Source: a virus. From it: a DNA stretch of 25,028 nt. Numbering within the stretch: the stretch's first letter is position 1; each line of letters opens with the position of its first letter. Shown piece by piece: positions 1 through 25,028 of the stretch. The notes under the pieces were generated by a model. It had not been told where the DNA came from. It did no database searches and worked only from the letters and a program-made list of their open reading frames with translations. The DNA lies in the IMG/VR virus record IMGVR_UViG_3300025070_000213, positions 1 to 25,028 of that record, one strand, 5' to 3'. A program made the translations under genes and the position numbers.

Positions 1-2
1 TC

Positions 3-731
3 CTAACCAGCATTCAGAGAATGTTACGACAGCACGATAACCCAAACATTACTTTGAGCTTTGACGCGGCATCACCGTTTGTGAATACAGCATATGGACA
101 AACGTATGCACATAACTTTTTTGAGCCTGGTAAGTTTGGTTACTTTATGGACAGAGCATTTGATCAACAAGAACTTGTTGGTAGTGATTTGCCTGCTCCG
201 TTTGGCCACAGTCCTATTATGGAAAGGCTTACAATGGGAGACCTATGTTCAATGGGTCCAGGTGCTCAGGACAAGAACGGTAACTACAAGTTCAGTGAAG
301 GACAACCACTTACAGATAAGCATGGTGAGCCTAAACTAGATGCAGAAGGCAATCAGTTGTATGCAGAACGTGACAGCACTACTTGGGACACACAAAGTTA
401 TTTGTATTACATGGCTCACAGTGTGTTCAATCACATTGACGCAGTACAAGAAGCAAACAGACTTGCTGACGTAGAACGTACAAGAGAATCAGTACACTAT
501 ACACAGTGGCGTAAACCTACAAAGAAAAGCAGTAAAGCACAAGAGGTATCACCTTACGTGCCAGTTAACTTGTTCTTCTTTGATAGTTTTGTTAAAGATG
601 TATTAGACCCTGCGTGTAGTGAACCGAGAAAACTAATCAAAGACTACAAGGAAATGTTAGATTCATTCAGTGTAGGCGGCGAAGCAGAAGATACTAAAGA
701 AGAGGTGTTAAATGAGTTTTTTGAATTTTAA
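3..731 (+). CDS. C-terminal part of an unidentified protein, possibly TGT/DpdA-like (partial at left edge)
   Basis: The reading frame is open back to base 3, so the first ATG at 21 is probably internal and the gene starts outside the window. About 242 residues are visible. Near the left end is a stretch reading NITLSFDAASPF, which resembles the hydrophobic-plus-Asp strand of the tRNA-guanine transglycosylase fold (FD followed by a small-residue/SP segment). A later segment around NHIDAVQEANRLAD resembles the helix seen in that fold after the active site. I see no CxCxxC zinc site in the visible part. A QueD-like gene, folE and queE lie downstream, and a DpdA-like DNA transglycosylase would complete that pathway, but the family call is a guess from short motifs and context. 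The stop overlaps the next gene by 20 bases. That a gene is present is certain; the function is weakly supported. Confidence 0.85.
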   Translation, partial: LTSIQRMLRQHDNPNITLSFDAASPFVNTAYGQTYAHNFFEPGKFGYFMDRAFDQQELVGSDLPAPFGHSPIMERLTMGDLCSMGPGAQDKNGNYKFSEGQPLTDKHGEPKLDAEGNQLYAERDSTTWDTQSYLYYMAHSVFNHIDAVQEANRLADVERTRESVHYTQWRKPTKKSSKAQEVSPYVPVNLFFFDSFVKDVLDPACSEPRKLIKDYKEMLDSFSVGGEAEDTKEEVLNEFFEF

Positions 732-1080
732 GAATCCTTTTAAGAAGACTGTTAAAGTTAATGGTTTAATAAAAGGCGATGTCCAGATGTTTGATAATGC
801 TATTAGACAATGGCATCATGATAGAAATTTAATTGATGGTAGTACTGATAAAGATCAAGTACTTAAATTAATGCAGGAGTTAGGCGAACTGTCTGATAAT
901 TGTTGCAAGGGTAAAGACATGCGTGATGACCTAGGTGACATGATGGTAGTAATGCTTAATATTATGGAACGCAATGGCTACTCATTAGAAGGTTGCCTTG
1001 CACAGGCATATGGTGACATCAAAGACCGTAAAGGTAAAATGGTAGATGGTATCTTTGTCAAGGAAGAAGACTATCTATGA
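712..1080 (+). CDS. MazG-like nucleotide pyrophosphohydrolase
   Basis: 122 residues. MazG-type enzymes hydrolyse NTPs or dNTPs to the monophosphate and pyrophosphate with Mg2+ held by acidic residues on helices. The sequence shows the pattern: QELGEL at 55-60 gives an ExxE pair (E56, E59), and DDLGDM at 72-77 gives the second acidic pair (D73, D76), followed by VVMLNI and NGYSLEGCLAQAYGDIKDRKG, the usual MazG-like tail. The length suits a single-domain member. The ATG at 712 has GAGG at 702-705 with a six-base spacer. It overlaps the previous gene by 20 bases and the next by four (ATGA). In phages such enzymes are thought to adjust nucleotide or (p)ppGpp pools; the substrate cannot be read from sequence. 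Confidence 0.85.
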   Translation: MSFLNFKNPFKKTVKVNGLIKGDVQMFDNAIRQWHHDRNLIDGSTDKDQVLKLMQELGELSDNCCKGKDMRDDLGDMMVVMLNIMERNGYSLEGCLAQAYGDIKDRKGKMVDGIFVKEEDYL

Positions 1081-1265: not shown

Positions 1266-1447
1266 AAACTATCAGAGCAACTATCACAGTAGAAATTCCG
1301 TACAGCAATGAACTTATGAACTATGGTGATAAGTTGAGCGATAAGTTAAAGCAAGTAATTGCAGATACAGATTTTATATCACACGAAACTCAGGCAGGTG
1401 ATTTACAACCTTGTACAAGACCAGTTATAAGAGTAACAGATGAATAG
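1262..1447 (+). CDS. Small unknown protein (61 aa)
   Basis: A 61-residue protein that I do not recognise. It opens with a strand-like stretch (MKTIRATITVEIPYS) followed by an amphipathic helix-like segment (NYGDKLSDKLKQVIADT). The composition is typical of small soluble phage proteins. It overlaps the upstream gene by four bases (ATGA) and the downstream gene by eight (ATGAATAG), which places it firmly in the same transcription unit. No function is suggested. Confidence 0.75.
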   Translation: MKTIRATITVEIPYSNELMNYGDKLSDKLKQVIADTDFISHETQAGDLQPCTRPVIRVTDE

Positions 1448-1952
1448 AGAAGGACACACAATAGACACAAAGTTCTTTATAGGCACTGAAGTAGAGCATA
1501 GCCCTGCTTATGGTCAGAGAACATTGTTTGTTATTGGACCACAACCTTACAAAGAAGTATTAGCAAGGGCATTGAATAATAACTGTCCTCACATATACTT
1601 AGGTGCTAATCAAAGTTTTGACATCAGCACAGAACATGCTAAACAAGAATGGGACTTTATGTTAAACAAACTTGTAGTTGATACAGGTATTTGGGTAACA
1701 CTTGACTTTGATGTAAAACATGTTGAATGGGTACTTGATAGTGGTATGACAGAGTATAACACTTTTATACCAATGATGAGTTGTAAGTTACCATTTATAA
1801 ATCAATTAGGATACAATGCATGTCTCAAATTAGATGACATGGATTTCAAAGCAACAAACCCAGGTGTATGGACACACAGAGTACACGACTTGATGGATAG
1901 GAAAGTATTCACCGATTGGACCAAGTACACCAAAGATGAGGTAATAGAGTAA
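1440..1952 (+). CDS. Unknown soluble phage protein (170 aa)
   Basis: A 170-residue soluble protein of unknown function. It shows alternating strand/helix segments: TLFVIG (about 29-34), HIYLGA (51-56), GIWVTLDFD (83-91), TFIPMM (108-113), ACLKLDD (127-133). This could be an alpha/beta or partial TIM-barrel-like fold. FIGTEVEHSPAYGQ near the start and GVWTHRVHDL near the end look like conserved-motif material because of their Gly/His/Trp content. It lies between two small unknowns and a basic protein, and overlaps the upstream gene by eight bases. A role next to the deazaguanine genes is possible but unsupported. Confidence 0.85.
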   Translation: MNREGHTIDTKFFIGTEVEHSPAYGQRTLFVIGPQPYKEVLARALNNNCPHIYLGANQSFDISTEHAKQEWDFMLNKLVVDTGIWVTLDFDVKHVEWVLDSGMTEYNTFIPMMSCKLPFINQLGYNACLKLDDMDFKATNPGVWTHRVHDLMDRKVFTDWTKYTKDEVIE

Positions 1953-3683: not shown

Positions 3684-3865
3684 TGGCAATATCAGATGAA
3701 ATGAGAGAACAACTTGAACAGGTTGTTCAGTATGGTGATCAAATCAAAGCAATGTTTGCAGAACAAGACGACGTTGACTATGAGATTGGTGACTACGATG
3801 AACCTATCACACAACTGCTAGGACACATGAATGAAGTCATGGAAACAATAGACGGAGGTTGGTAG
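3683..3865 (+). CDS. Small acidic unknown protein (60 aa)
   Basis: A 60-residue acidic, probably helical protein (MAISDEMREQLEQVVQYGDQ...). The start at 3683 is preferred over the in-frame ATG at 3659 because AAGGAGG at 3672-3678 sits at good distance from 3683 and the longer start would overlap the upstream gene. No motif or family is recognised. Its TAG shares one base with the GTG start of the QueD-like gene, so the two are likely translated together. Confidence 0.7.
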   Translation: MAISDEMREQLEQVVQYGDQIKAMFAEQDDVDYEIGDYDEPITQLLGHMNEVMETIDGGW

Positions 3866-4296
3866 TGAGAAGTATTTGGGTAACGTTTACTAAAGAGGGT
3901 ATTCACAAGTACCCTGCCGCCTTAGATGATCCTAAGTTAGCAACAGGCGATTGGGACGATGTATCCTTTTTAGGATATCCACATAGACACACCTTTCACT
4001 TTAAGGTGTGGCTCGAAGTGTTCCATGATGACAGAGACGTAGAATTTATACAGTTTAAGAGATGGATGGAAAGACTGTATGCACAAGACACATTGCAATT
4101 AGATTACAAGAGTTGTGAAATGATTGCAGACGATTTAGCGAGTGAGATACAAGCAAAGTATCCTGATCGCTGGATTAAGATTTCGGTAGCCGAAGATAAT
4201 GAAAACGGTTGCGAAATGGAGTATCCAATAAATTATATGGATGGTCCAAACTTTGATGCTGATGGTATCGAAGAAGTATTTGATAGTCTAAAATAA
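3865..4296 (+). CDS. QueD-like (6-pyruvoyl/6-carboxytetrahydropterin synthase fold) protein
   Basis: 143 residues from the GTG at 3865, which has GGAGG at 3854-3858 at six bases. QueD converts dihydroneopterin triphosphate to 6-carboxytetrahydropterin. A plausible zinc triad is visible: H14 in GIHKYPAA, and H40 and H42 in YPHRHTFHFK, with the H-x-H spacing of the family. DDRDVEFIQFKR (55-66) corresponds to the usual V-x-DF segment before the long helix. SCEMIADDLASEI (83-95) matches the helix that normally begins PTxEN, and E110 in KISVAED fits the conserved late Glu. No cysteine lies between H14 and H40, where QueD has its catalytic Cys, so it is divergent or does a related reaction. FolE and QueE genes downstream support the assignment. 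An unrelated cupin-like fold is less likely. Confidence 0.6.
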   Translation: MRSIWVTFTKEGIHKYPAALDDPKLATGDWDDVSFLGYPHRHTFHFKVWLEVFHDDRDVEFIQFKRWMERLYAQDTLQLDYKSCEMIADDLASEIQAKYPDRWIKISVAEDNENGCEMEYPINYMDGPNFDADGIEEVFDSLK

Positions 4297-4306
4297 GGAG
4301 AAAACT

Positions 4307-4489
4307 ATGAGTTCAGAAATACATTTACAAATCAAAGCCGCAATGGATACTTACTTAGAGGAAAGTTCTAAGTTTGAAGACAAAGGTGTAAAGGCCGCGG
4401 CTACTAGAGCACGTGGTGCTTTGATGGAATTAACTAAACTTGCAAAAGCAAGACGTGGTGAAATCCAAGACAAAAAGAATGCAATGTAA
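4307..4489 (+). CDS. Histone H1-like (Hc1-type) small protein
   Basis: 60 residues. The pattern of a helical acidic N-terminal half, then FEDKGVKAAATRARGALMEL and TKLAKARRGEIQ, resembles the histone Hc1-like family of small DNA-binding proteins, where the conserved core is a G-x-K-A-A-x-T-R-A-R/K motif followed by a basic helix. Such proteins are thought to bind DNA non-specifically. The ATG at 4307 follows AAGGAG at 4295-4300. The last A of its stop is the first base of the next ATG, so it is translationally linked to another Lys-rich small protein. The family call is moderate because the protein is short. Confidence 0.7.
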   Translation: MSSEIHLQIKAAMDTYLEESSKFEDKGVKAAATRARGALMELTKLAKARRGEIQDKKNAM

Positions 4490-4656
4490 TGACAAAGAAG
4501 AAGGCAAACACTAGCTCAACACCTAAAGTTATTAGCAAAAATGAGGCTGACAAAATGGACAACTATGTTCAAAGTCTCGAAGATGAAGTAACTCATGTTG
4601 TTGACTATGGTGACATAGCAGAACCAAAAAAGAAACGAGGTAAAAAGAAGAAATGA
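4489..4656 (+). CDS. Small lysine-rich protein (55 aa)
   Basis: A 55-residue protein with basic ends (MTKKKANTSS at the start, PKKKRGKKKK at the end) around an acidic middle (residues about 18-45). Basic tails of this kind often bind nucleic acid or membranes, but no family is recognised. The ATG overlaps the Hc1-like stop by one base (TAATG), and the stop overlaps the next gene by four (ATGA). The gene is entirely enclosed by these overlaps, which supports it. Confidence 0.65.
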   Translation: MTKKKANTSSTPKVISKNEADKMDNYVQSLEDEVTHVVDYGDIAEPKKKRGKKKK

Positions 4657-5861
4657 GAAAACTGTTTTATATGGGACTTGAGTCCTACGAGGCACGATAT
4701 ACACTTCAGTTACAAGACTGGAATGAACGAGTATTCAAACGCAGAGGCATTGACTATGAGATCATTACAGGTGAAGAGCTGGATAACAGCAAGGCTATTG
4801 TAACAGGTAGTGTGTTAGATGCACATGGGCGTTCCTATTACAGTTTGTCTCAGACTATGAACCTTGTTCAAATGATGAAGAACGGCGAACTAACAAACGA
4901 GGATGTTATCTTTTATGAAGATATGTTTACTCCTGGTATTGAATGTTTGCCTTACATCATGGATCAGTCACCGCCAGAATACAGACCCAAAGTGTATTTG
5001 CGTTTCCTTGCACAAACTACAGACCCAGATGACTTCCTTATTAGAGAAGGAATGTTCCACTGGATGCGTAAGTATGAGGAAATGGTAGATCACGTAGTAA
5101 GTGGTATTATGGTAGCAAATGAAGAGTTTGCCGCACACTTGCGTATTGCTGGATTGTTAGCACCTATTTATGTAACTGGCTTGCCATATGGTAAAGAAGA
5201 AGTACAAGGTAGGGTTGATCACAGCACACCATTGCATAAAAGAAAGAAGCGTGTAGCCTTTGCCGCACGTTGGGATGACGAGAAGCAACCTAACTTCTAT
5301 ATGGATCTTGCAGAAGCATACTACAAGATTGATCCTGAAGTAGAGTTTGCAGTATTTTGCGGACACCCAGAACTAAAGAGCAACAGGCAAGAGTATGTTG
5401 ATAGGGCATTAGCCTATGAAGGTGGTCACAACAGACTCGGTGATGCAAACTTCAAAGTCTACACAGGCTTAAAGAAGAATGACTACTATAATTTACTTGC
5501 AGACAGCCAGGTGCTGTTCAATTGTGCATTGCAGGATTGGACCAGCAACACTGTAAGTGAAGCGGATACCATGGGGGCATTAACACTGTTTCCTGCTTAC
5601 AGAAGTTTCCCAGAAGTATTTGCAAATAACCATAACCACTTGTATGCTCCTTGGAGTATTGATGATGCAGTAAACAAATTGCAGAATATGTTTGCCAACA
5701 TCGAAGCCAAAGACCTCAGTGGTTATAACTTAGGAAAAATATCAGACTACCAGAATGGTACTATCGATAGAACGTTAGATATTATGATGGGCAACGGAGA
5801 GCAATATGCAAGGAACGAATGGGACTTCCGTAGACATGTTGCTATAAACAAATATGAGTGA
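4653..5861 (+). CDS. GT-B-type glycosyltransferase-like protein
   Basis: 402 residues. GT-B glycosyltransferases move a sugar from a nucleotide donor to an acceptor with two Rossmann-like domains. Here the second domain is the clearer: KKRVAFAARWDDEKQPNF (about 198-215) is the usual domain-opening strand and loop, followed by helix DLAEAYY. FAVFCGHPELK and LLADSQVLFNCALQDWTSNTVSEADTMG (about 281-308) hold the expected DWTSxTxxEA-type donor-binding segment, then LTLFP. The N-terminal domain is less recognisable. The ATG overlaps the upstream stop by four bases, and the stop overlaps galE by eight (ATGAGTGA), so the two enzymes are probably used together. The acceptor (DNA, protein or host glycan) is not known. 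Confidence 0.7.
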   Translation: MRKLFYMGLESYEARYTLQLQDWNERVFKRRGIDYEIITGEELDNSKAIVTGSVLDAHGRSYYSLSQTMNLVQMMKNGELTNEDVIFYEDMFTPGIECLPYIMDQSPPEYRPKVYLRFLAQTTDPDDFLIREGMFHWMRKYEEMVDHVVSGIMVANEEFAAHLRIAGLLAPIYVTGLPYGKEEVQGRVDHSTPLHKRKKRVAFAARWDDEKQPNFYMDLAEAYYKIDPEVEFAVFCGHPELKSNRQEYVDRALAYEGGHNRLGDANFKVYTGLKKNDYYNLLADSQVLFNCALQDWTSNTVSEADTMGALTLFPAYRSFPEVFANNHNHLYAPWSIDDAVNKLQNMFANIEAKDLSGYNLGKISDYQNGTIDRTLDIMMGNGEQYARNEWDFRRHVAINKYE

Positions 5862-6822
5862 AGCAAAAACAATCTTAGTAACAGGAGGTAGCGGATACAT
5901 TGGTGGGCAAGTTTGTCGACTACTTGTAGATGCAGGCCACAATGTTATTAACGTAGACAGGCGTAAGAGCGACATACCAGGTGTTACACTATATCCTTTT
6001 GATATAGATAACCACCAACTAAAAGGTGTTATCCAACTTACAAAGCCAGATACCATTATGCACTTTGCCGCAGACCATGAAGTTGGTCGTAGCATGAGTG
6101 AACCAGGAGTGTTCTATTGGAACAACGTGGCTAACACTATTGCATTGTTAAATCATGCAGTAGAGGCTGGTGTACAGAACTTTATCTTTAGCAGTTCAAG
6201 TTCAGTGTATGGGGATATAGATAACTTCCCAACCACAGAAGACACACCAAAGTCACCTGTTAGTTCTTATGGAATGAGCAAAAGTATTATTGAAGATATA
6301 CTACCAGACTATAAACGAGCATACGGTCTTAACTATGCCGCTCTGAGGTACTTCAATGCCGCTGGTGCAAGTCCAGACAACACACATGGTTACATGCAAG
6401 AAAAGGCTTCTCACATTGTCCCAATCATTAGCAGAAAGATACTTGCTGGTGAAGTTGTAGAAGTGTTTGGTAACGACTATAACACAGAAGATGGTACATG
6501 CGAACGTGACTACACTCACATGTTTGACATTGCCACAGCACATTTGGCCGCTGATTACTACCTGTCTGATGGTGGAGAAGGTGGCATATTTAACATTGGT
6601 GCAGGTAACAGCATGAGTGTTTTACAAGTAATAAATGCATTTGAAAGAGTGCTAGGCAAAACTGTACACTATGAATTTGTACCAAGACGTGATGGTGATG
6701 CACCTAAGACGTTTGCAGACAACACAAAGGCACGTGAAGCATTTGGTTGGACTCCAATGTTTGGTTTAGATGAAATAGTTGAACATTCGTTTGCATGGGA
6801 AGAGAAGAACTTTAAGAAATGA
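5854..6822 (+). CDS. galE: UDP-glucose 4-epimerase-like NAD-dependent sugar epimerase
   Basis: 322 residues, a normal length for the extended short-chain dehydrogenase family. GalE interconverts UDP-glucose and UDP-galactose using bound NAD. The N-terminus has TGGSGYIGG (10-18) as the dinucleotide-binding loop and V-D-R at 34-36. The catalytic YxxxK is Y139 and K143 in SSYGMSKS, with the serine-rich SSSSSVYG stretch (113-120) before it. RYFNAAGASPD and HIVPII and the GNDYNTEDGTCERDYTH segment are typical GalE substrate-side motifs. Related epimerases such as those for UDP-GlcNAc or GDP-sugars cannot be excluded. It is coupled to the glycosyltransferase upstream and overlaps the phosphoribosyltransferase downstream by four bases (ATGA). 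Confidence 0.9.
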   Translation: MSEAKTILVTGGSGYIGGQVCRLLVDAGHNVINVDRRKSDIPGVTLYPFDIDNHQLKGVIQLTKPDTIMHFAADHEVGRSMSEPGVFYWNNVANTIALLNHAVEAGVQNFIFSSSSSVYGDIDNFPTTEDTPKSPVSSYGMSKSIIEDILPDYKRAYGLNYAALRYFNAAGASPDNTHGYMQEKASHIVPIISRKILAGEVVEVFGNDYNTEDGTCERDYTHMFDIATAHLAADYYLSDGGEGGIFNIGAGNSMSVLQVINAFERVLGKTVHYEFVPRRDGDAPKTFADNTKAREAFGWTPMFGLDEIVEHSFAWEEKNFKK

Positions 6823-7286
6823 ATAGTTACGAATATATAAGTCAGGACTTAATGAAAACGTATTACAAATCTGTAATACAAAAGATGGCACAAAGCAATT
6901 ACAAACCAGATTTGGTTATAGGGTTACTTCGAGGTGGTGCTGAGATGGCTGTGAATTTCAGTCACTACTTTGATGTACCTTGTGAAATTATCAAGTGGCA
7001 GTTACGTGACAGCAACAAAGATATTGATAAAGAATTACTTGCTGAAATTATAAAAAGCAATTCGCATTCTAATATTTTAGTTGTAGATGATTTGTGTGAC
7101 ACAGGTGCGGCATTACAAGGCGTTGATGATGTCTTCTCTGATGCACACTTCTTAGGTGATGTTTCCTATGCTGTATGTATAGAAAACATTGATAATGATT
7201 TCAACATTGATTTTACTGCTAGACAGATTAGTAGAAATGTTGATGAACAATGGTTTGTATTTCCATGTGAGAGTTGGTGGTTATGA
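6819..7286 (+). CDS. Type I phosphoribosyltransferase
   Basis: 155 residues. Type I phosphoribosyltransferases join a base to PRPP. The PRPP-binding motif is ILVVDDLCDTGAAL (86-99), with two acidic residues followed by DTG. The early PDLVIGLLRGGAEMAV segment (30-45) is the usual first loop with R-G-G, seen in hypoxanthine/xanthine-guanine type enzymes. The length is close to that of bacterial Gpt-like enzymes, but the substrate base is not determined by what I see. It overlaps galE by four bases and the next small gene by four. A salvage role for purines in the infected cell would fit. Confidence 0.85.
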   Translation: MNSYEYISQDLMKTYYKSVIQKMAQSNYKPDLVIGLLRGGAEMAVNFSHYFDVPCEIIKWQLRDSNKDIDKELLAEIIKSNSHSNILVVDDLCDTGAALQGVDDVFSDAHFLGDVSYAVCIENIDNDFNIDFTARQISRNVDEQWFVFPCESWWL

Positions 7287-7480
7287 AAACAGCAGATATA
7301 AAAAATGAAAACGGTTATGTGGTTTATTTGTATATAAACAATGACCTATTTGGTACAGTTGATGTTAGAAACAAGTCTATTCACTATGCTGAAGATGTAG
7401 TAGAGAATTGGCAGAACGGTATACTAACAGAAGACAACCAACACATTAAAAATAAAAAGACGAAATTATTCACATCATAG
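7283..7480 (+). CDS. Small unknown protein (65 aa)
   Basis: A 65-residue protein, probably starting at ATG 7283 (ATGA overlap with the previous stop) rather than at the TTG at 7274. It has a strand-like N-terminal half (GYVVYLYINNDLFGTVDV) and a Lys-rich tail. It is the last gene before promoter P2, whose -35 begins at the base after its stop. No family is recognised. Confidence 0.65.
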   Translation: MKTADIKNENGYVVYLYINNDLFGTVDVRNKSIHYAEDVVENWQNGILTEDNQHIKNKKTKLFTS

Positions 7481-7509
7481 TTGACTTTTTATCTAAATAC
7501 AAGTATAAT
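7481..7509 (+). promoter_or_regulatory. Sigma70-type promoter P2 (TTGACT-N17-TATAAT)
   Basis: -35 TTGACT at 7481-7486 and -10 TATAAT at 7504-7509, 17 bases apart, directly upstream of folE. The leader from about 7516 contains CGGAGAAAACGAC just before the ATG at 7547, giving a GGAG ribosome binding site. Confidence 0.75.
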
Positions 7510-7546
7510 ATAAAGACATCCTCGTCTTAAACTCGGAGAAAACGAC

Positions 7547-8236
7547 ATGAAAAAACATGAAGAAGTAGCCAAAAGGTTACAAGAAAGTAACACTCGTTAC
7601 TGGGCCGGAGATAACATCTCACAACATCTTGAAGAAGGTGACAAACAAACATTAATAGAAGAAGCCACAGTAGCATTTGAAAATGTGCTAGACACGTTGG
7701 TTATCGATAGACACAATGACCCTAACAGCATGGGCACAGGCAAACGTCTTGCTAAAATGTATATCAATGAACTAATGGCAGGACGTTATGATCCAATACC
7801 ACCTGCAACTGCTTTCCCTAACGACAGTGCTGATAGGTATGAAGGCATGTTGGTTGTGCGTAGTGAGCTCACAAGTATGTGTTCACATCATCACCAGATC
7901 GTTAAAGGTGTTGCATACATTGGTATCATTGCCAGTGAGAAACTAATTGGACTAAGCAAGTACACAAGGATTGCACAGTGGTGTGCAGAGCGTGGTACAT
8001 TGCAAGAAGAACTTGCTAACGACATCGTTAGAGAGATTCAGAAAGCAACAGGCACAGAGAACTTGGGTGTATACATTCAAGCCACACACGGTTGTGTAGA
8101 GAACAGGGGTGTTAAAGCACACAGTAGTCTCACACAAACAACTGTATTAAAAGGTGCATTCAAAGATGACCCAGCAACTAAGAAAGAGTTTATGGACAAT
8201 ATTAAACTACAACAATCATATGCGTGTGATAGATAA
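7547..8236 (+). CDS. folE: GTP cyclohydrolase I
   Basis: 229 residues, the usual length. FolE converts GTP to 7,8-dihydroneopterin triphosphate, the first step of folate, pterin and 7-deazaguanine synthesis. The zinc ligands are C112 and H115 in MCSHHHQ and C183 in HGCVENRGVK. GTGKRLAKMYINELMAGRY (63-81) and IGLSKYTRI (134-142) are standard family motifs, and the SSLTQTTVLKG tail fits. A dedicated promoter lies just upstream. The last A of the stop is the first base of the next ATG (TAATG). With a QueD-like protein and QueE in this window, the likely use is 7-deazaguanine synthesis rather than folate, but that choice is inferred. Confidence 0.97.
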   Translation: MKKHEEVAKRLQESNTRYWAGDNISQHLEEGDKQTLIEEATVAFENVLDTLVIDRHNDPNSMGTGKRLAKMYINELMAGRYDPIPPATAFPNDSADRYEGMLVVRSELTSMCSHHHQIVKGVAYIGIIASEKLIGLSKYTRIAQWCAERGTLQEELANDIVREIQKATGTENLGVYIQATHGCVENRGVKAHSSLTQTTVLKGAFKDDPATKKEFMDNIKLQQSYACDR

Positions 8237-8769
8237 TGTCGATTAGTGCTAGAGGACCAAGAAACATATTAGTGATTGATCGTAATTGCGTTCCTATCAA
8301 TGAAATTATTAATCATGTAGTTCATCACAGAGACATTGATAATGTAATGTCAAGATACAGTGTTCATGAGAGCGAAGTATTTGATGCTATCAGTTGCTGG
8401 TGTGATGTGCGTGAACCCACTGAGAATGATTTTATCAAGTTCAAGACGGAGATGAATGAGACTGGTATACTTGATGTTGAGACAACAGGTATCAGTGACT
8501 GGATGATGCTGAGTTGTATATCATTTGGTAAGGATTATCAACCTACTGAATCAGACCTATCATACCTTTATGGTTGGGGACTAGGTGAACTGTTGATACA
8601 ATCTATGACTGATATCAAAAACGATACCAAGGACTACGAAGCAAGTGTATTGCATGAAGCAATACTGTTAGCATTTGAAAGCAGTTACAAAAAAGTAACA
8701 CCAGAGAATGCTGAAGAAATGATTTACAGTATTGAATTAGAAAGAAGCAGAGATGAGGTAAGACATTGA
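8236..8769 (+). CDS. Unknown protein between folE and queE (177 aa)
   Basis: A 177-residue acidic soluble protein. It begins with GPRNILVIDRNCVPINEI, a Rossmann-like opening strand-loop without a glycine-rich loop, followed by helical segments. The middle contains ISCWCDV (CxC) and GILDVETTGISDW, and the end is a long charged helix. It is not QueD: there is no zinc triad. It is co-translated with folE (TAATG) and with queE (TTGA), so a role in the same pathway is plausible, but no family is recognised. Confidence 0.8.
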   Translation: MSISARGPRNILVIDRNCVPINEIINHVVHHRDIDNVMSRYSVHESEVFDAISCWCDVREPTENDFIKFKTEMNETGILDVETTGISDWMMLSCISFGKDYQPTESDLSYLYGWGLGELLIQSMTDIKNDTKDYEASVLHEAILLAFESSYKKVTPENAEEMIYSIELERSRDEVRH

Positions 8770-9662
8770 GCAACGTACCTATTAAATATTCTGAGACATT
8801 TTACTCAGCACAAGGTGAAGGCCAGTACATAGGCATACCCAGTTTGTGGATGCGATTCTTTTTGTGTAACTTACAATGTAATGGCTTTGGACAAGCAGAT
8901 CCTACTAATCCTGATACATATGAATTGCCATTTGAGGAGATTGATATATCTGATATAACAGATGTACGTGATCTTCCTGTGTTCGATAAAGGCTGTGATA
9001 GTTCGTACACATGGAGTAGAAAGTACAGGCATCTTATTACTAACAGAAGTATCAAAGAAGGAGTTGATGAGCTCACAGAACTACTGCCACATGGCAAGTT
9101 CCAGAACCCTGTTACCAAACAATGGGTACACATGGTGTTTACTGGTGGTGAGCCATTACTCCATCCTACACAACCTGGTATCATTGGCGTACTAAATGAA
9201 TTCAAAGAGCGTGATAACTTCCCTAACAATGTCACAGTTGAAACAAATGGTACACGTGAACTAAGTGATGATTTGTTTTACTACATACAAAACAACTTCA
9301 CAGATGTAACTGGCAGAGAATGGTTTTGGTCGTTGAGTCCTAAGTTATGGAGTACTGCTGGAGAAAAGCATAAACGTGCTATTAAGCCTGAGTTTGTTGC
9401 TAAGTATGCAAAGTGTACACCACACGGTCAGTTAAAGTTTGTAGTAAACGGAAGTGAGGAGAGTTGGCGTGAAGTCGAAGAGAACACAAAAGCATTTCGT
9501 GATGCTGGTTGCGATTACCCTGTTTGGATTATGGGGGTCGGTGGCACCTTGGAAGGACTCAAGGTCACTGAAGCAGACATTGCCGATGAGGCCATCGCCA
9601 GAGGATATTATTACTCCAGCAGGGTCCACGTTCATATATACGGCAATGCTATAGGCAAGTAA
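8766..9662 (+). CDS. queE: QueE, 7-carboxy-7-deazaguanine synthase (radical SAM)
   Basis: 298 residues, longer than many QueE proteins. QueE is a radical SAM enzyme that converts 6-carboxytetrahydropterin to 7-carboxy-7-deazaguanine. ETFYSAQGEGQYIGIPSLWMR (10-30) is the standard QueE opening. Two cluster cysteines are C34 and C38 (FFLCNLQC). The third is probably C77 in KGCDSSYTW, the family's CDxxYTW motif, after a 38-residue insertion. FTGGEPLLH and VTVETNGT follow as SAM-binding segments. The only usable start is TTG at 8766, overlapping the preceding TGA. Its TAA shares one base with the next ATG. Confidence 0.93.
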   Translation: MSNVPIKYSETFYSAQGEGQYIGIPSLWMRFFLCNLQCNGFGQADPTNPDTYELPFEEIDISDITDVRDLPVFDKGCDSSYTWSRKYRHLITNRSIKEGVDELTELLPHGKFQNPVTKQWVHMVFTGGEPLLHPTQPGIIGVLNEFKERDNFPNNVTVETNGTRELSDDLFYYIQNNFTDVTGREWFWSLSPKLWSTAGEKHKRAIKPEFVAKYAKCTPHGQLKFVVNGSEESWREVEENTKAFRDAGCDYPVWIMGVGGTLEGLKVTEADIADEAIARGYYYSSRVHVHIYGNAIGK

Positions 9663-10213
9663 TGTTTAGATATATTGAGAATGTATTTGATGAAACAATA
9701 CTAAATCGCTTTTACAATAAGTATTTTCAAATACTTGATAGCGATCTCAATAGCCACGACATTTGGGCAGACAGTGCAACAAAGAATAAAACACTGCCCG
9801 AATGTTTTACAAGCAACTTAACAACACAAGAACGTTATGAACTCATAGAGTATTTGTACTCTACACCAACTTCACCTTTCCACCAAGACAACCGAATACG
9901 TAATTGCGATGTAGCAATACAAAAATTGTTGCCAAATTGTAGCATACCAAAACACACAGACACTTGTATAGGCAGTATGACGGTGTTCATGAACAAAGAG
10001 TATGACACTTCTAATGGCGGACAGTTTGTTTGGTATGACCCGGAAGTAGAAAAAGTGTCATACTCTGTGATACCAAAATGGAACTGTGCCGTGTGGAGTT
10101 ATAACAGCGGTATAGAGCATGAGGTTACCACAGTAAACCAACACAATAGAATCACAATGCAGTTTTTTATATGGGACAATAAAAAGGATGCGAAAGTCCA
10201 AGTCAAAAGTTGA
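9662..10213 (+). CDS. 2OG-Fe(II) oxygenase (prolyl-4-hydroxylase-like), first copy type
   Basis: 183 residues. These enzymes hydroxylate a substrate using iron, 2-oxoglutarate and O2. The iron triad reads as H98 and D100 in PKHTDTCIG and H153 in GIEHEVTTV; R163 in HNRITMQFF is placed to bind 2-oxoglutarate. GGQFVWYDP (119-127) and NCAVWSYNS are the usual strand motifs between them. The ATG shares a base with the queE stop. The substrate is unknown: protein, DNA base or sugar are all possible. A second, different oxygenase lies at 20963-21568. Confidence 0.85.
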   Translation: MFRYIENVFDETILNRFYNKYFQILDSDLNSHDIWADSATKNKTLPECFTSNLTTQERYELIEYLYSTPTSPFHQDNRIRNCDVAIQKLLPNCSIPKHTDTCIGSMTVFMNKEYDTSNGGQFVWYDPEVEKVSYSVIPKWNCAVWSYNSGIEHEVTTVNQHNRITMQFFIWDNKKDAKVQVKS

Positions 10214-23310: not shown

Positions 23311-23318
23311 TATTTATT
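23311..23318 (-). promoter_or_regulatory. Possible late promoter for the DUF3307-like gene (AATAAATA)
   Basis: Read on the minus strand the bases are AATAAATA, seven of eight matches to the T4 late consensus. It lies about 27 bases upstream of the ATG at 23284, with AGGAGG between. Tentative because single matches are common in AT-rich DNA. Confidence 0.35.
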
Positions 23319-23982
23319 ACTTGTACCCTATTTGCATAAAACGAGTGTACACAGGCGTTTTTAAGGCGCCTACGTAACGTGTATTGCTTAATGGGTACTT
23401 AGATTGCATATCATCTATGCTTTGACAAGTGTTTATATGGCCATTAAAATCAGGTGAGTCGTTGGTTTGCATGACTATTAGTTGCTCGTTACTAGCAGTT
23501 TCAAACCAACTTGTATCCATGTGTTCACAACTGGTATTGATAACTACGTTTGGTGTAACTTCTATCAGTTCGCCACCTGTTTGAAACTCCATATTATCTG
23601 TGGACAGCATCGACACATCAGCAACGACACCTTTATATTTCCAAGAATTTTCGACATATCGTCTATTGAATATTTCGCTTTTGCTAACTGCAACTGGATC
23701 TACATCAAACCCATACAATCTTTCTATGCTAAACGAATCGTGAAGCAGTGGTACCAAACTACCAATCCAACAACCTAACAATGCCCATGTGGTGTTAGAT
23801 TCAATTGGTACCACTTGTAAACAGTTCTTTAACCATATTTTGCTTGCCATTTGTCCTAGACTAAATGCGTCTTTTGGGTACAGTTGACTATTAACTAACT
23901 CTAGATAACTAGGCTTAAAAGAACCTAATTCATCACACCAATCTCTTACTTGGTCCCATGATTCTAGATTGACATTACTCAT
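23317..23982 (-). CDS. Class I SAM-dependent methyltransferase-like protein
   Basis: 221 residues. Strand I reads WALLGCWIGSL (66-76), the position of the usual GxGxG SAM-binding loop, here G70-C-W-I-G74 with only two glycines. The acidic residue after strand II is D93 in LYGFDVDP. VVADVS and VVINTSCEHMD (the motif IV region) follow in order. This is the layout of class I methyltransferases found in T4-like marine phages, but the substrate is unknown and the loss of glycines leaves activity uncertain. Its ATG overlaps the stop of the neighbouring gene by eight bases (ATGAGTAA). Confidence 0.65.
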   Translation of the reverse strand: MSNVNLESWDQVRDWCDELGSFKPSYLELVNSQLYPKDAFSLGQMASKIWLKNCLQVVPIESNTTWALLGCWIGSLVPLLHDSFSIERLYGFDVDPVAVSKSEIFNRRYVENSWKYKGVVADVSMLSTDNMEFQTGGELIEVTPNVVINTSCEHMDTSWFETASNEQLIVMQTNDSPDFNGHINTCQSIDDMQSKYPLSNTRYVGALKTPVYTRFMQIGYK

Positions 23983-25028
23983 TGTCTTCTTTGTAACGGT
24001 TCTCTAGCCATTCGTAGTCGTTGATTTTAGCAAGTCTTACAGGCTTATTGATATTCTCTTTTGCATACACTGTGCCTGCTTGGGCTCCTGCTCTTGCGGC
24101 TTCTTTGAACTCAGCATCTTTAGCAGGGTTCATCCATTGAGATAGTCTTTGTATGCTGTCTTGATCTGCATTCACTGTTAACTTAACACACTCTCTGAAT
24201 GCACCACGCCATGTAGAGAACTCGTCTGTGTTAAATTTAGTTGTACTTGCAACTTCAGGCATTGCTTTGAACCTACTGCTAAGTCCTGTTGTAAAGTCTA
24301 GTCCCCAACTTGTAGCATCTAATACTTGTTTGGTGTTAAACAACTTGATACCACCATAACCATATTCAGTGCCTGTGATTGGATTACGTGCAAGCCATAC
24401 ATGTACAACTTCTTGGTCGTACACATCAGGTATGTACGAGAAGTCAAACTCATCGTCAACCATGCTGTCTGCATCAACTACCCAGAACATTGAGGTACCT
24501 ACTTGCTTTGCGGCTTCTTGGTGTGCTGAGAATATTCCGTCGATGTCTCTTACCCATAGTGCATTAGGGAACCTTGCTTGTAGACGCTTATATGCGTTCT
24601 CAGCATAGGTTTCGTGGTAGGAAAGGAACACAATATCATATGATTTATACGTGCTACCCGGCTCTCTAACATACTGTAGACCACGAATCTTGTTTAAGAA
24701 TATCTGATCTGTTGTTAAACTAGCATAGTCTTTGTTAGTAGGCCACAGGCGTAATCCACCATAACTGTGTGTCTTTTGTGTATGCGGATTGAGTCTTTGC
24801 CATACGTGAACTTTGTCTATGTTGTTCAATTGTGGCATAAAACTATCATCAATTACTTCTGTGTACACATCAACATCTGTGTCTGTTGTCCAAGCAAACG
24901 AGTGCCCTTGCTCTTTGTGTTCATTAATTTGTTTGACAAACTCATCTCTGTCTGTAACAGTTGCCATATCAATAATAGGAAATGCTGTTGTTGTACTTGC
25001 TACAATATCTACTTGCTTTAAGTTGGCA
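23975..25028 (-). CDS. Glycosyltransferase-like protein with internal duplication (partial at right edge)
   Basis: The frame is open from 23975 to the right edge on the minus strand; the ATG at 24967 is probably internal, because the upstream codons continue with QVDIVASTTTAF, a strand like the YDIVFLSY strand further on. 351 residues are visible. Two copies of a module, at about residues 23-78 and 161-213 counted from that ATG, each read F-x-x-x-D/T-D-x-D/S..., VHVW, NP, then YGG-x-x-L, with equal spacing. The second has VVDADS, a DxD-like nucleotide-sugar site as in GT-A glycosyltransferases; the first has TTDTDV at the same place. The C-terminal part is Ala/Lys-rich. The acceptor is unknown; the link to virion or host glycans is inference. 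Confidence 0.75.
   Translation of the reverse strand, partial: ANLKQVDIVASTTTAFPIIDMATVTDRDEFVKQINEHKEQGHSFAWTTDTDVDVYTEVIDDSFMPQLNNIDKVHVWQRLNPHTQKTHSYGGLRLWPTNKDYASLTTDQIFLNKIRGLQYVREPGSTYKSYDIVFLSYHETYAENAYKRLQARFPNALWVRDIDGIFSAHQEAAKQVGTSMFWVVDADSMVDDEFDFSYIPDVYDQEVVHVWLARNPITGTEYGYGGIKLFNTKQVLDATSWGLDFTTGLSSRFKAMPEVASTTKFNTDEFSTWRGAFRECVKLTVNADQDSIQRLSQWMNPAKDAEFKEAARAGAQAGTVYAKENINKPVRLAKINDYEWLENRYKEDNE

Follow-up and report, generated by a model that had tools for sequence, protein, structure and literature searches.

The window, i.e., the whole stretch of 25,028 nucleotides analysed here, probably carries a phage cassette that exchanges guanine for a 7-deazaguanine in DNA after replication. 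The likely product is DNA with a 7-deazaguanine, which is possibly glycosylated. In the proposed pathway, GTP would be converted to CPH4 by FolE and a QueD supplied either by another part of the phage genome or by the host, and CPH4 would be turned into 7-carboxy-7-deazaguanine (CDG) by QueE. The protein at 3865-4296 would most likely remove the carboxylate of CDG to give 7-deazaguanine, which a protein with predicted TGT fold, whose last half is encoded at 1-731, may then swap for guanine in DNA. The freed guanine would probably be recycled by the phosphoribosyltransferase. What was observed in favour of this mechanism are the identities of the genes, modelled folds, conserved residues and co-occurrence. 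The features concerned are collected in Table 1.

Table 1. Genes of the putative 7-deazaguanine cassette and its neighbourhood in the window.
Feature	Position	Strand	Remarks
Divergent guanine transglycosylase (predicted), C-terminal 242 of 519 residues	1-731	+	truncated by contig start
MazG-like pyrophosphatase, loosely linked	712-1080	+	phrog_1992 2.2e-35; 9/180 loci
Recurrent protein, function unknown	1440-1952	+	homologue of ACP17 gp122, E 3e-12
QueD-fold protein without catalytic Cys	3865-4296 (ORF open from 3859/3865)	+	phrog_17812; candidate DpdL
GT4-type (GT-B) glycosyltransferase	4653-5861	+	homologous to X1 L183:4455-5615, E 6e-13
UDP-glucose 4-epimerase (GalE-like)	5854-6822	+	PF01370 3.1e-53; solved epimerase, phmmer 5.6e-68
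Purine (xanthine-guanine type) phosphoribosyltransferase	6819-7286	+	PF00156 1.5e-11; solved purine phosphoribosyltransferase 1.9e-7
FolE, GTP cyclohydrolase I	7547-8236	+	PF01227 8e-37; phrog_2197 9e-45
ORF, function unknown, between FolE and QueE	8236-8769	+	44/180 loci
QueE, 7-carboxy-7-deazaguanine synthase	8766-9662	+	phrog_2076 'QueE-like' 1.8e-49

At the DNA level, the window as a whole shows no similarity to the phage records. The start of the GalE-like gene overlaps the end of the glycosyltransferase gene by 8 bases, and the epimerase and phosphoribosyltransferase genes overlap by 4 bases. The protein at 1440-1952 matches neither Pfam nor PHROGs; its homologue gp122 sits between FolE and DpdA2 in ACP17.

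The profile matches confirm FolE and QueE, both of which had been named in an earlier note on this DNA. Residues C112, H114, H115, H181 and C183 of FolE, which we take to be the zinc and active-site residues, are unchanged in all 11 aligned phage FolE sequences. In QueE, C34 and C38 are unchanged in 10 out of 10 aligned phage sequences, while the third Cys follows an insertion and lies in GCDSSYTW; the match to Pfam Radical_SAM (4.5e-4) stays under the family cut-off. The earlier note described the pathway as dispersed, which is not borne out, as its genes form a recurrent cassette across related loci.

The protein at 3865-4296 matches phrog_17812 ('unknown function', 9e-32) and has no match at E<=1 to PF01242, in which a QueD is recognised by a score above the cut-off. 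A structure prediction, proposed earlier as a check against QueD/PTPS, yields the T-fold of PTPS/QueD and no unrelated fold: the predicted model (pLDDT 84.6) aligns with 109 residues of E. coli QueD (4ntk) at 2.3 A (VIA Z 12.3; Foldseek 2.5e-5). By hhalign the family matches phage QueD with 6.5e-5 and probability 64, aligned only over 45 C-terminal columns, and a less diverse alignment (A5) gives E 0.0035 and probability 9. The first His, the HxH motif and the helices of QueD are present, and H14, H40 and H42, by position the putative three zinc-binding His, are unchanged in all 12 aligned members. The residue four before HxH is Leu in 12 out of 12 members, whereas the same catalytic position is Cys in all nine aligned phage QueD sequences, and the previous remark on a missing catalytic cysteine was therefore right. 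H54, R57, E60, S83 and C84 are invariant among the 12 members. The Asp-His pair of phage QueD (D70-H71), invariant like C27 in 9/9 aligned sequences, finds no invariant counterpart in the aligned family. The family shares the T-fold, the His triad and a conserved Glu with E. coli QueD, but lacks the catalytic Cys and the QueD catalytic centre, and has new invariant His, Arg, Glu and Cys residues. At least 599 relatives of the protein exist in IMG/VR; a search of plasmids for it returned none.

It is improbable that this protein is a diverged QueD which makes CPH4 without the usual Cys, with CDG as the final product. The retained QueD fold and His triad would allow it, and no other QueD occurs in the window's 97 kb relative or in 7 out of 14 IMG/VR records, some of them above 200 kb. 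This is opposed by the exchange of Leu for Cys, while phage QueD holds C27, D70 and H71 invariant, and by the named phages with the QueD-like family, 11 out of 11 of which have a PF01242 match apart from the QueD-like gene. Ten of these matches lie above the Pfam cut-off and that of D479 lies below; in phiST, ACP17, RHph_I1_18 and BUCT-ZZ01 the match belongs to the same gene cluster. QueD is also present in all nine DpdA2-type cassettes among the glycosyltransferase loci, which derive from the best 80 of many relatives. For the phage of the window itself, no QueD has come to light, and its nearest relative, the 97 kb fragment, has none either, so that the QueD of this phage may be located elsewhere or be that of the host. 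Given the separate PF01242 matches, the protein is unlikely to be the pathway's own QueD. It more likely acts after QueE, and is perhaps a CDG decarboxylase, i.e., a candidate DpdL, the enzyme that decarboxylates CDG to 7-deazaguanine.

No QueC match was found in the window, as noted before. The same holds for 9 out of 11 named phages, while partial matches above the cut-off occur in D479 and in two of 14 IMG/VR records. A CDG-type product, as considered in the earlier note, partly fits these genes, but further processing of CDG is suggested by the additional QueD-fold enzyme. The GTP-derived 7-deazaguanine route can be retained as a phage route with a guanine transglycosylase, though not with 3865-4296 as its QueD step.

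The first reading of this DNA saw no transglycosylase, yet the window holds part of a predicted one at 1-731. Its product is identical to residues 278-519 of L001:5308-6867, and the codon of the catalytic Asp equivalent, residue 298 (SFDAAS), is found at 63-65. The model of the 519-residue protein (mbab9db5d4fdb, pLDDT 90.8) aligns with 304 residues of T. maritima TGT (2ash) at 4.5 A (VIA Z 20.2). All 50 VIA rows shown are TGT, and Foldseek rows 1-4 are TGT subunits, with a thin margin over xylanase barrels (E 1.3e-3 for row 4, 1.7e-3 for row 5). Compared by hhalign with DpdA2 (E 1.7e-6, probability 90), the family pairs DSGGFQ with DSGGLQ and SFDAAS with SYDSTT. Residues D98, S99, G100, G101, Q103, D146 and D298 are present in 58 out of 58 family rows, and with D98 and D298 so is the catalytic Asp pair of the DSGG and FD motifs. 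The CxCxxC...H zinc site which tRNA TGT carries was not found; columns that are invariant or nearly so contain a single Cys, C359 (54/58). There is no significant Pfam or PHROG match, and phrog_10773, the family that holds the DpdA2 of nt-1, does not match. The cut-off of PF01702 is not reached: L001 and PA5oct give no match, L175 gives 0.11, and the best E, 0.026, belongs to a bacterial member (Magnetospirillum). A PF01702 scan of 30 records returned one weak match (E 0.022, in G021), which is of the same family as window 1-731. All 13 matches in phage records are annotated 'hypothetical protein'. Judged by its model, the 519-residue protein appears to be a guanine transglycosylase of the TGT/DpdA superfamily, which would exchange bases on DNA. 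The predicted transglycosylase of the PA5oct/Paride group thereby belongs to a family that neither Pfam nor PHROGs nor the matched phage records annotate. In Phosso, its gene lies about 170 kb from the QueD-like gene.

Co-occurrence was analysed around the best 80 of many relatives of the transglycosylase and, likewise, of the glycosyltransferase. The anchor ORF was present in 76 and 79 of the 80 loci, respectively, and 44 and 53 loci extend 5 kb to each side; both sets contain closely related loci, and one contig appears in them repeatedly. Within these samples from the best 80, 44 of the 53 glycosyltransferase loci carry the transglycosylase of the 519-residue family (type I) and nine carry DpdA2, while none has both and none has neither. 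The QueD-like gene is found in 43 out of 44 transglycosylase-anchored and in 51 out of 53 glycosyltransferase loci of the same samples, the two exceptions in the latter (L333, L334) having DpdA2. A homologue of the 1440-1952 protein occurs in 41/44 type I versus 0/9 DpdA2-type glycosyltransferase loci, again from the best 80 relatives.

DpdA2 is found in 70 phage records, only four of which (X1, BUCT-ZZ01 and two ACP17 records) are also among those with the QueD-like protein. Among 37 records, the DpdA2 profile (A1) detects only X1, ACP17 and BUCT-ZZ01, which are themselves rows of the profile; PA5oct, Phosso and 26 IMG/VR records give no match. The DpdA2 of nt-1 as a single query matches none of 30 records, a list that holds no positive control. 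The record sets searched (30, 37, 25) were picked by length and name from 164 to 357 loci.

Since tRNA is the usual TGT target and the transglycosylase has the TGT fold, the cassette could serve tRNA queuosine, with tRNA instead of DNA as the target, but we regard this as unlikely. The family substitutes for DpdA2 locus by locus (best 80 of many relatives), and no tRNA gene is found in the window. In addition, the DpdA2-bearing phage nt-1 has dPreQ0 in its genome (PMC6884629). Even less credible is a route in which the phosphoribosyltransferase makes a deazaguanine nucleotide that is incorporated by the polymerase, leaving another role to the TGT-like protein. The phosphoribosyltransferase in the cassette, MazG in 9 out of 180 loci and, in phiST, a P-loop (AAA_18) protein adjoining the QueD-like gene would suit such a route. 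It conflicts with the catalytic Asp pair retained throughout the 58 rows of the TGT-like protein, and with the type I loci sampled from the best 80 of many relatives, since 10 out of these 44 yielded no phosphoribosyltransferase.

The glycosyltransferase of X1 (L183:4455-5615) matches PF00534 with 8e-12, the window protein itself with 0.066, and R206, K211, E303 and E321 are invariant in all 26 aligned members. Phage glycosyltransferases acting on 5-hydroxymethylcytosine are well known, and there is a sizeable, though minor, chance that the glycosyltransferase and GalE have nothing to do with deazaguanine and serve another base, e.g., 5-hydroxymethylcytosine, or a cell-surface sugar. PA5oct and Phosso have a PF00303 protein, in 6 out of 11 named phages no glycosyltransferase is found in the 14-16 kb around the QueD-like gene, and 2 of the 53 glycosyltransferase loci (best 80 of many) lack the QueD-like gene. 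A link to deazaguanine is favoured by the remaining 51 loci of this sample, by X1, ACP17 and BUCT-ZZ01, which carry the glycosyltransferase and have no PF00303 match, and by L327 and L345, where the ORFs of QueD-like protein, glycosyltransferase, epimerase and QueD overlap end to end. We tentatively propose glycosylated 7-deazaguanine in DNA: an unrecognised transglycosylase family would insert a 7-deazaguanine that the Cys-less QueD-fold protein, rather than QueC, has prepared, and the GT4 glycosyltransferase, supplied by the phage GalE, would attach a hexose. A C-linked sugar is conceivable, because C7 would be nucleophilic once CDG has lost its carboxylate. PA5oct DNA has an apparent size of 375 kb on pulsed-field gels (PMC3936114), compared to a sequenced genome of 286,783 bases. 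This would fit a bulky modification, with momylation or terminal redundancy as alternatives.

A second transglycosylase is suspected in family A2 (phiST CGPG_00065), which occurs in 6 out of 11 named phages, five of which supplied its rows. We leave it at a suspicion because the motifs were read by eye and the profile similarity is weak (hhalign against the 519-residue family, A4: 0.0033, probability 9.6; against A1: 0.13). A weak tblastn match in a Campylobacter phage (E 0.04) offers a lead. DUF6610, considered as the transglycosylase, gave a single weak match with internal stops among 30 records and was dropped. Sequence searches of solved structures with the profiles A1, A2, A3 (QueD-like family) and A4 retrieved nothing relevant. 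In the Amycolatopsis prophage L375, QueD-like, QueD, QueE and FolE genes stand in a row, followed by terminase genes, an arrangement in favour of the proposed pathway. A 297-residue protein upstream of its QueD-like gene looks TGT-like by eye; it has no Pfam match and 6.5 bits to the A2 profile.

The dDG phages of Cui et al. 2023 reportedly have an extra enzyme (DpdL) acting on CDG. In Cellulophaga phage phiST, the QueD-like protein is encoded near QueD, QueE and FolE, and the 14-16 kb around its gene hold no such glycosyltransferase. The DpdA2 cassettes known from phages like Vibrio phage nt-1 (Hutinet et al. 2019, PMC6884629) share FolE, QueD, QueE and a TGT-related enzyme with ours, and the DNA of these phages is modified at guanine position 7, as proposed for the window. 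The same paper places nt-1 among phages carrying QueC plus an amidotransferase, whereas cassettes of the window type mostly have no QueC match. The window cassette further differs by its other transglycosylase and by the addition of the Cys-less QueD-fold enzyme, the glycosyltransferase, GalE and the phosphoribosyltransferase. PA5oct has already been credited with a 'deazaguanine synthesis/incorporation system' by Iyer et al. 2021 (PMC7824862), whose section 19 names no gene for this phage, no QueD paralogue and no link to a glycosyltransferase. In our literature search, which covered few subscription papers, no report of a CDG decarboxylase or of glycosylated deazaguanine DNA was recognised.

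The analysis suggests a likely role for a family of phage proteins which is common in IMG/VR and had no assigned function, and links the insertion of deazaguanine to glycosylation. If true, this would add a new class to the bases of phage DNA, and one that lends itself to direct tests in Pseudomonas phages available in culture. An altered guanine, perhaps bearing a sugar, could hide phage DNA from bacterial defences.

Both FolE and QueE of the window, which together with QueD form an established route to 7-carboxy-7-deazaguanine (CDG; available text of PMC13329287), were confirmed by PHROG matches and by conserved residues in the alignments of phage FolE and QueE (FolE also by Pfam), with a long insertion between the second and third cluster cysteines of the window QueE. 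The window is a single virus record of 25,028 bases, and a DNA similarity search found no near relative among phage records. Overlaps of 1-8 bases link the glycosyltransferase, epimerase and phosphoribosyltransferase genes, and likewise FolE, ORF 8236 and QueE. QueE is adjoined by a 2OG-Fe(II) oxygenase gene (PF13640, 2e-6) that is present in 9 of 180 loci and whose product could hydroxylate a base. Two minus-strand ORFs gave no Pfam match at E 0.05; one of them encodes a protein with a DAD motif that appears glycosyltransferase-like by eye.

Features discussed in the window and in other loci
Location	Feature	Remark
window 3-731	transglycosylase (family A4), C-terminal part	open frame truncated by contig start
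window 1440-1952	g1440	
window 3865-4296 (+)	QueD-like protein	phrog_17812
window 4653-5861	glycosyltransferase	
window 5854-6822	epimerase	GalE-like
window 6819-7286	phosphoribosyltransferase	
window 7547-8236	FolE	
window 8236-8769	ORF 8236 (g8236)	
window 8766-9662	QueE	
window 9662-10213	2OG-Fe(II) oxygenase	
window 23317-23982 (-)	ORF	
window 23975-24967 (-)	ORF	DAD motif
L184:6215-7366	Bakedbeans fusion protein	
L187:6431-7312	MA9V-3 fusion protein	
L333:6969-7991	DND-motif protein	
L369:10899-11672	DND-motif protein	
L375:7102-12228	prophage gene set	Amycolatopsis

The earlier note described the pathway genes as dispersed, which is probably wrong, since the same gene set recurs together across loci. 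Among 160 loci retrieved by searching for either the QueD-like protein or QueE (some contigs are represented twice), the three commonest gene orders comprise 16 loci each and share the succession transglycosylase, g1440, QueD-like protein and glycosyltransferase (in either order), epimerase (two of the three orders), phosphoribosyltransferase, FolE and QueE. Two further scans used the transglycosylase and the glycosyltransferase as baits, and only loci flanked by 5 kb on each side were counted; as the scans cover the best 80 of at least 599 relatives and the best 80 of 248, the counts come from related loci and cannot be treated as independent. Around the transglycosylase, 43 of 44 loci (from the best 80) carry the QueD-like gene and 43 the glycosyltransferase; in L210, which has no QueD-like gene, QueE adjoins the transglycosylase. 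Around the glycosyltransferase (53 loci from the best 80), the QueD-like gene occurs in 51, and the transglycosylase is of the window type (A4) in 44 and the known phage enzyme DpdA2 in 9, with no locus having both or neither. The A4-type loci contain QueD-like (44), QueE (42), g1440 (41), epimerase (40), FolE (37), phosphoribosyltransferase (34) and QueD (5) genes, and the DpdA2-type loci FolE, phosphoribosyltransferase, epimerase and QueD (9 each), QueE (8) and QueD-like (7) genes; g1440, g11004, the exonuclease, g13536, g14652, g8236 and MazG were found in none of these nine. In both L327 and L345, the ORFs for the QueD-like protein, glycosyltransferase, epimerase and QueD form an unbroken series, each overlapping the next at its end. 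L333 and L369 share an unknown protein (about 60 bits) with a DND motif, by eye similar to a DxD-type glycosyltransferase, which in L333 occupies the expected position of the QueD-like gene.

The transglycosylase at the window edge had been overlooked. Its complete gene on the near-identical contig L001 encodes 519 residues, and the window frame is identical to residues 278-519 of this protein. No Pfam or PHROG model matches family A4 (58 sequences) significantly, and its profile matches DpdA2 (E 1.7e-6, probability 90). In the Foldseek search with the structure model (pLDDT 90.8), rows 1-4 are TGT (E 4.9e-4 to 1.3e-3), followed by xylanase barrels at 1.7e-3; VIA, a re-examination of Foldseek's top 1000, gave Z 20.2 and TGT in all 50 rows listed. 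The gene product is thus predicted from the model to be a TGT. Relatives in phage records, namely 11 PA5oct-like phages, Phosso and Vibrio phage 2.275.O (42% of the query covered), are all annotated as hypothetical proteins.

The QueD-like protein falls in phrog_17812, a family of unknown function. Structure prediction, one of the checks proposed in the earlier note, yielded a QueD fold (60 window and IMG/VR sequences, pLDDT 84.6) with E. coli QueD as the nearest structure (Foldseek E 2.5e-5; VIA Z 12.3, 109 residues, 2.3 A). In the window protein and those of 11 other phages (30-64% identity to it), H14, H40, H42, H54, R57, E60, S83, C84, E85 and E110 are invariant, and a leucine stands four residues ahead of HxH; phage QueD, by contrast, keeps C27, D70, H71 and E137 (9 proteins). 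Profile comparison shows the two families to be related (E 6.5e-5, probability 64, 45 C-terminal columns aligned), with E 0.0035 and a probability of only 9 for a less diverse alignment. Fusion proteins occur in two phages: the QueD-like domain is C-terminally joined to a domain of unknown function in Vibrio phage Bakedbeans and, in Chryseobacterium phage MA9V-3, to a domain that PHROG assigns to the HNH/endonuclease VII endonucleases.

By tblastn, the family is present in 26 phage records, which were sorted into 11 kinds with one record tested per kind (Ahp1, Phosso, PA5oct, phiST, ACP17, RHph_I1_18, X1, Bakedbeans, D479, BUCT-ZZ01 and MA9V-3). Each of the 11 genomes also has a PF01242 match (E<=0.01) away from the QueD-like gene; it exceeds the cut-off in 10 of them and falls below it in D479. 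Given these matches and the altered catalytic centre, the protein is probably not the pathway's QueD, contrary to the reading in the earlier note. A separate match was also found in 7 of 14 IMG/VR records; the seven without one, including a 97 kb relative of the window and records of 210-311 kb, may be fragments. In addition to its QueD-like protein, PA5oct encodes two proteins that match PF01242, with the zinc motif HGH in one and HGY in the other. QueC had no match in nine of the named phages, a partial one over the cut-off in D479 and a weak one in X1; partial or weak matches occurred in 4 of the 14 IMG/VR records (2 over the cut-off), that of G002 being NAD synthase-like by eye.

The named phages differ in their transglycosylase. 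X1 (FolE, glycosyltransferase, DpdA2, QueD-like, QueE), ACP17 (QueD, FolE, DpdA2, glycosyltransferase, QueD-like, QueE) and BUCT-ZZ01 (QueE, phosphoribosyltransferase, QueD, FolE, glycosyltransferase, DpdA2, QueD-like, glycosyltransferase) have proteins of phrog_10773, the DpdA2 family that includes nt-1 DpdA2. A4 occurs in PA5oct, immediately preceding the glycosyltransferase and QueD-like genes (FolE was not found within the stretch examined), and in Phosso, about 170 kb from the QueD-like gene. The other six carry the phiST CGPG_00065 family (A2), whose role as a transglycosylase is no more than a suspicion. DpdA2 also occurs independently of the QueD-like gene: of 70 phage records with DpdA2, only X1, BUCT-ZZ01 and two ACP17 records are among the 26.

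Because Iyer et al. (2021), in the text available, credit PA5oct with a deazaguanine synthesis and incorporation system, the transglycosylase may already be listed in their supplement. On pulsed-field gels, PA5oct DNA migrates as if it were about 375 kb long (available text of PMC3936114), compared with a sequenced length of 286,783 bases; the gap would fit bulky modification, but terminal redundancy or momylation could also explain it. A term search found no mention of phage DNA modification in the available text of the Paride and PA5oct papers.

Bacterial genomes contributed 20 loci with the QueD-like family. Four Magnetospirillum loci and one Rhodospirillaceae bin combine the glycosyltransferase, QueD-like protein, A4 transglycosylase and QueD, with a phage-type integrase near the cassette in L369. 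QueD-like, QueD, QueE and FolE genes are consecutive in the actinobacterial L375, L376 and L380, while L378, L379 and L381 have QueD-like and QueD genes, with FolE in two of the three. L375 runs on into terminase genes and is therefore a prophage; directly upstream of these lies a compact set of TGT-like (by eye), QueD-like, QueD, QueE and FolE genes.

With FolE, QueE and a TGT-fold gene in a recurrent cassette, the deazaguanine direction of the earlier note is borne out. FolE, QueD and QueE would make CDG, and the fold, the lost QueD centre, the gene company and the rarity of QueC suggest that the QueD-like enzyme acts on it, probably by decarboxylation. CDG decarboxylation is the activity of DpdL, for which we take the family to be a candidate. 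The exchange of A4 with DpdA2 across loci points to insertion of the base into DNA by the transglycosylase. PF00303, a family able to make hydroxymethylpyrimidines, had no match in X1, ACP17 or BUCT-ZZ01. In the boldest step of this proposal, the glycosyltransferase, which has clear GT4 relatives (PF00534 at 8e-12 for the X1 homologue) and is accompanied by a GalE-like epimerase, would add a sugar.
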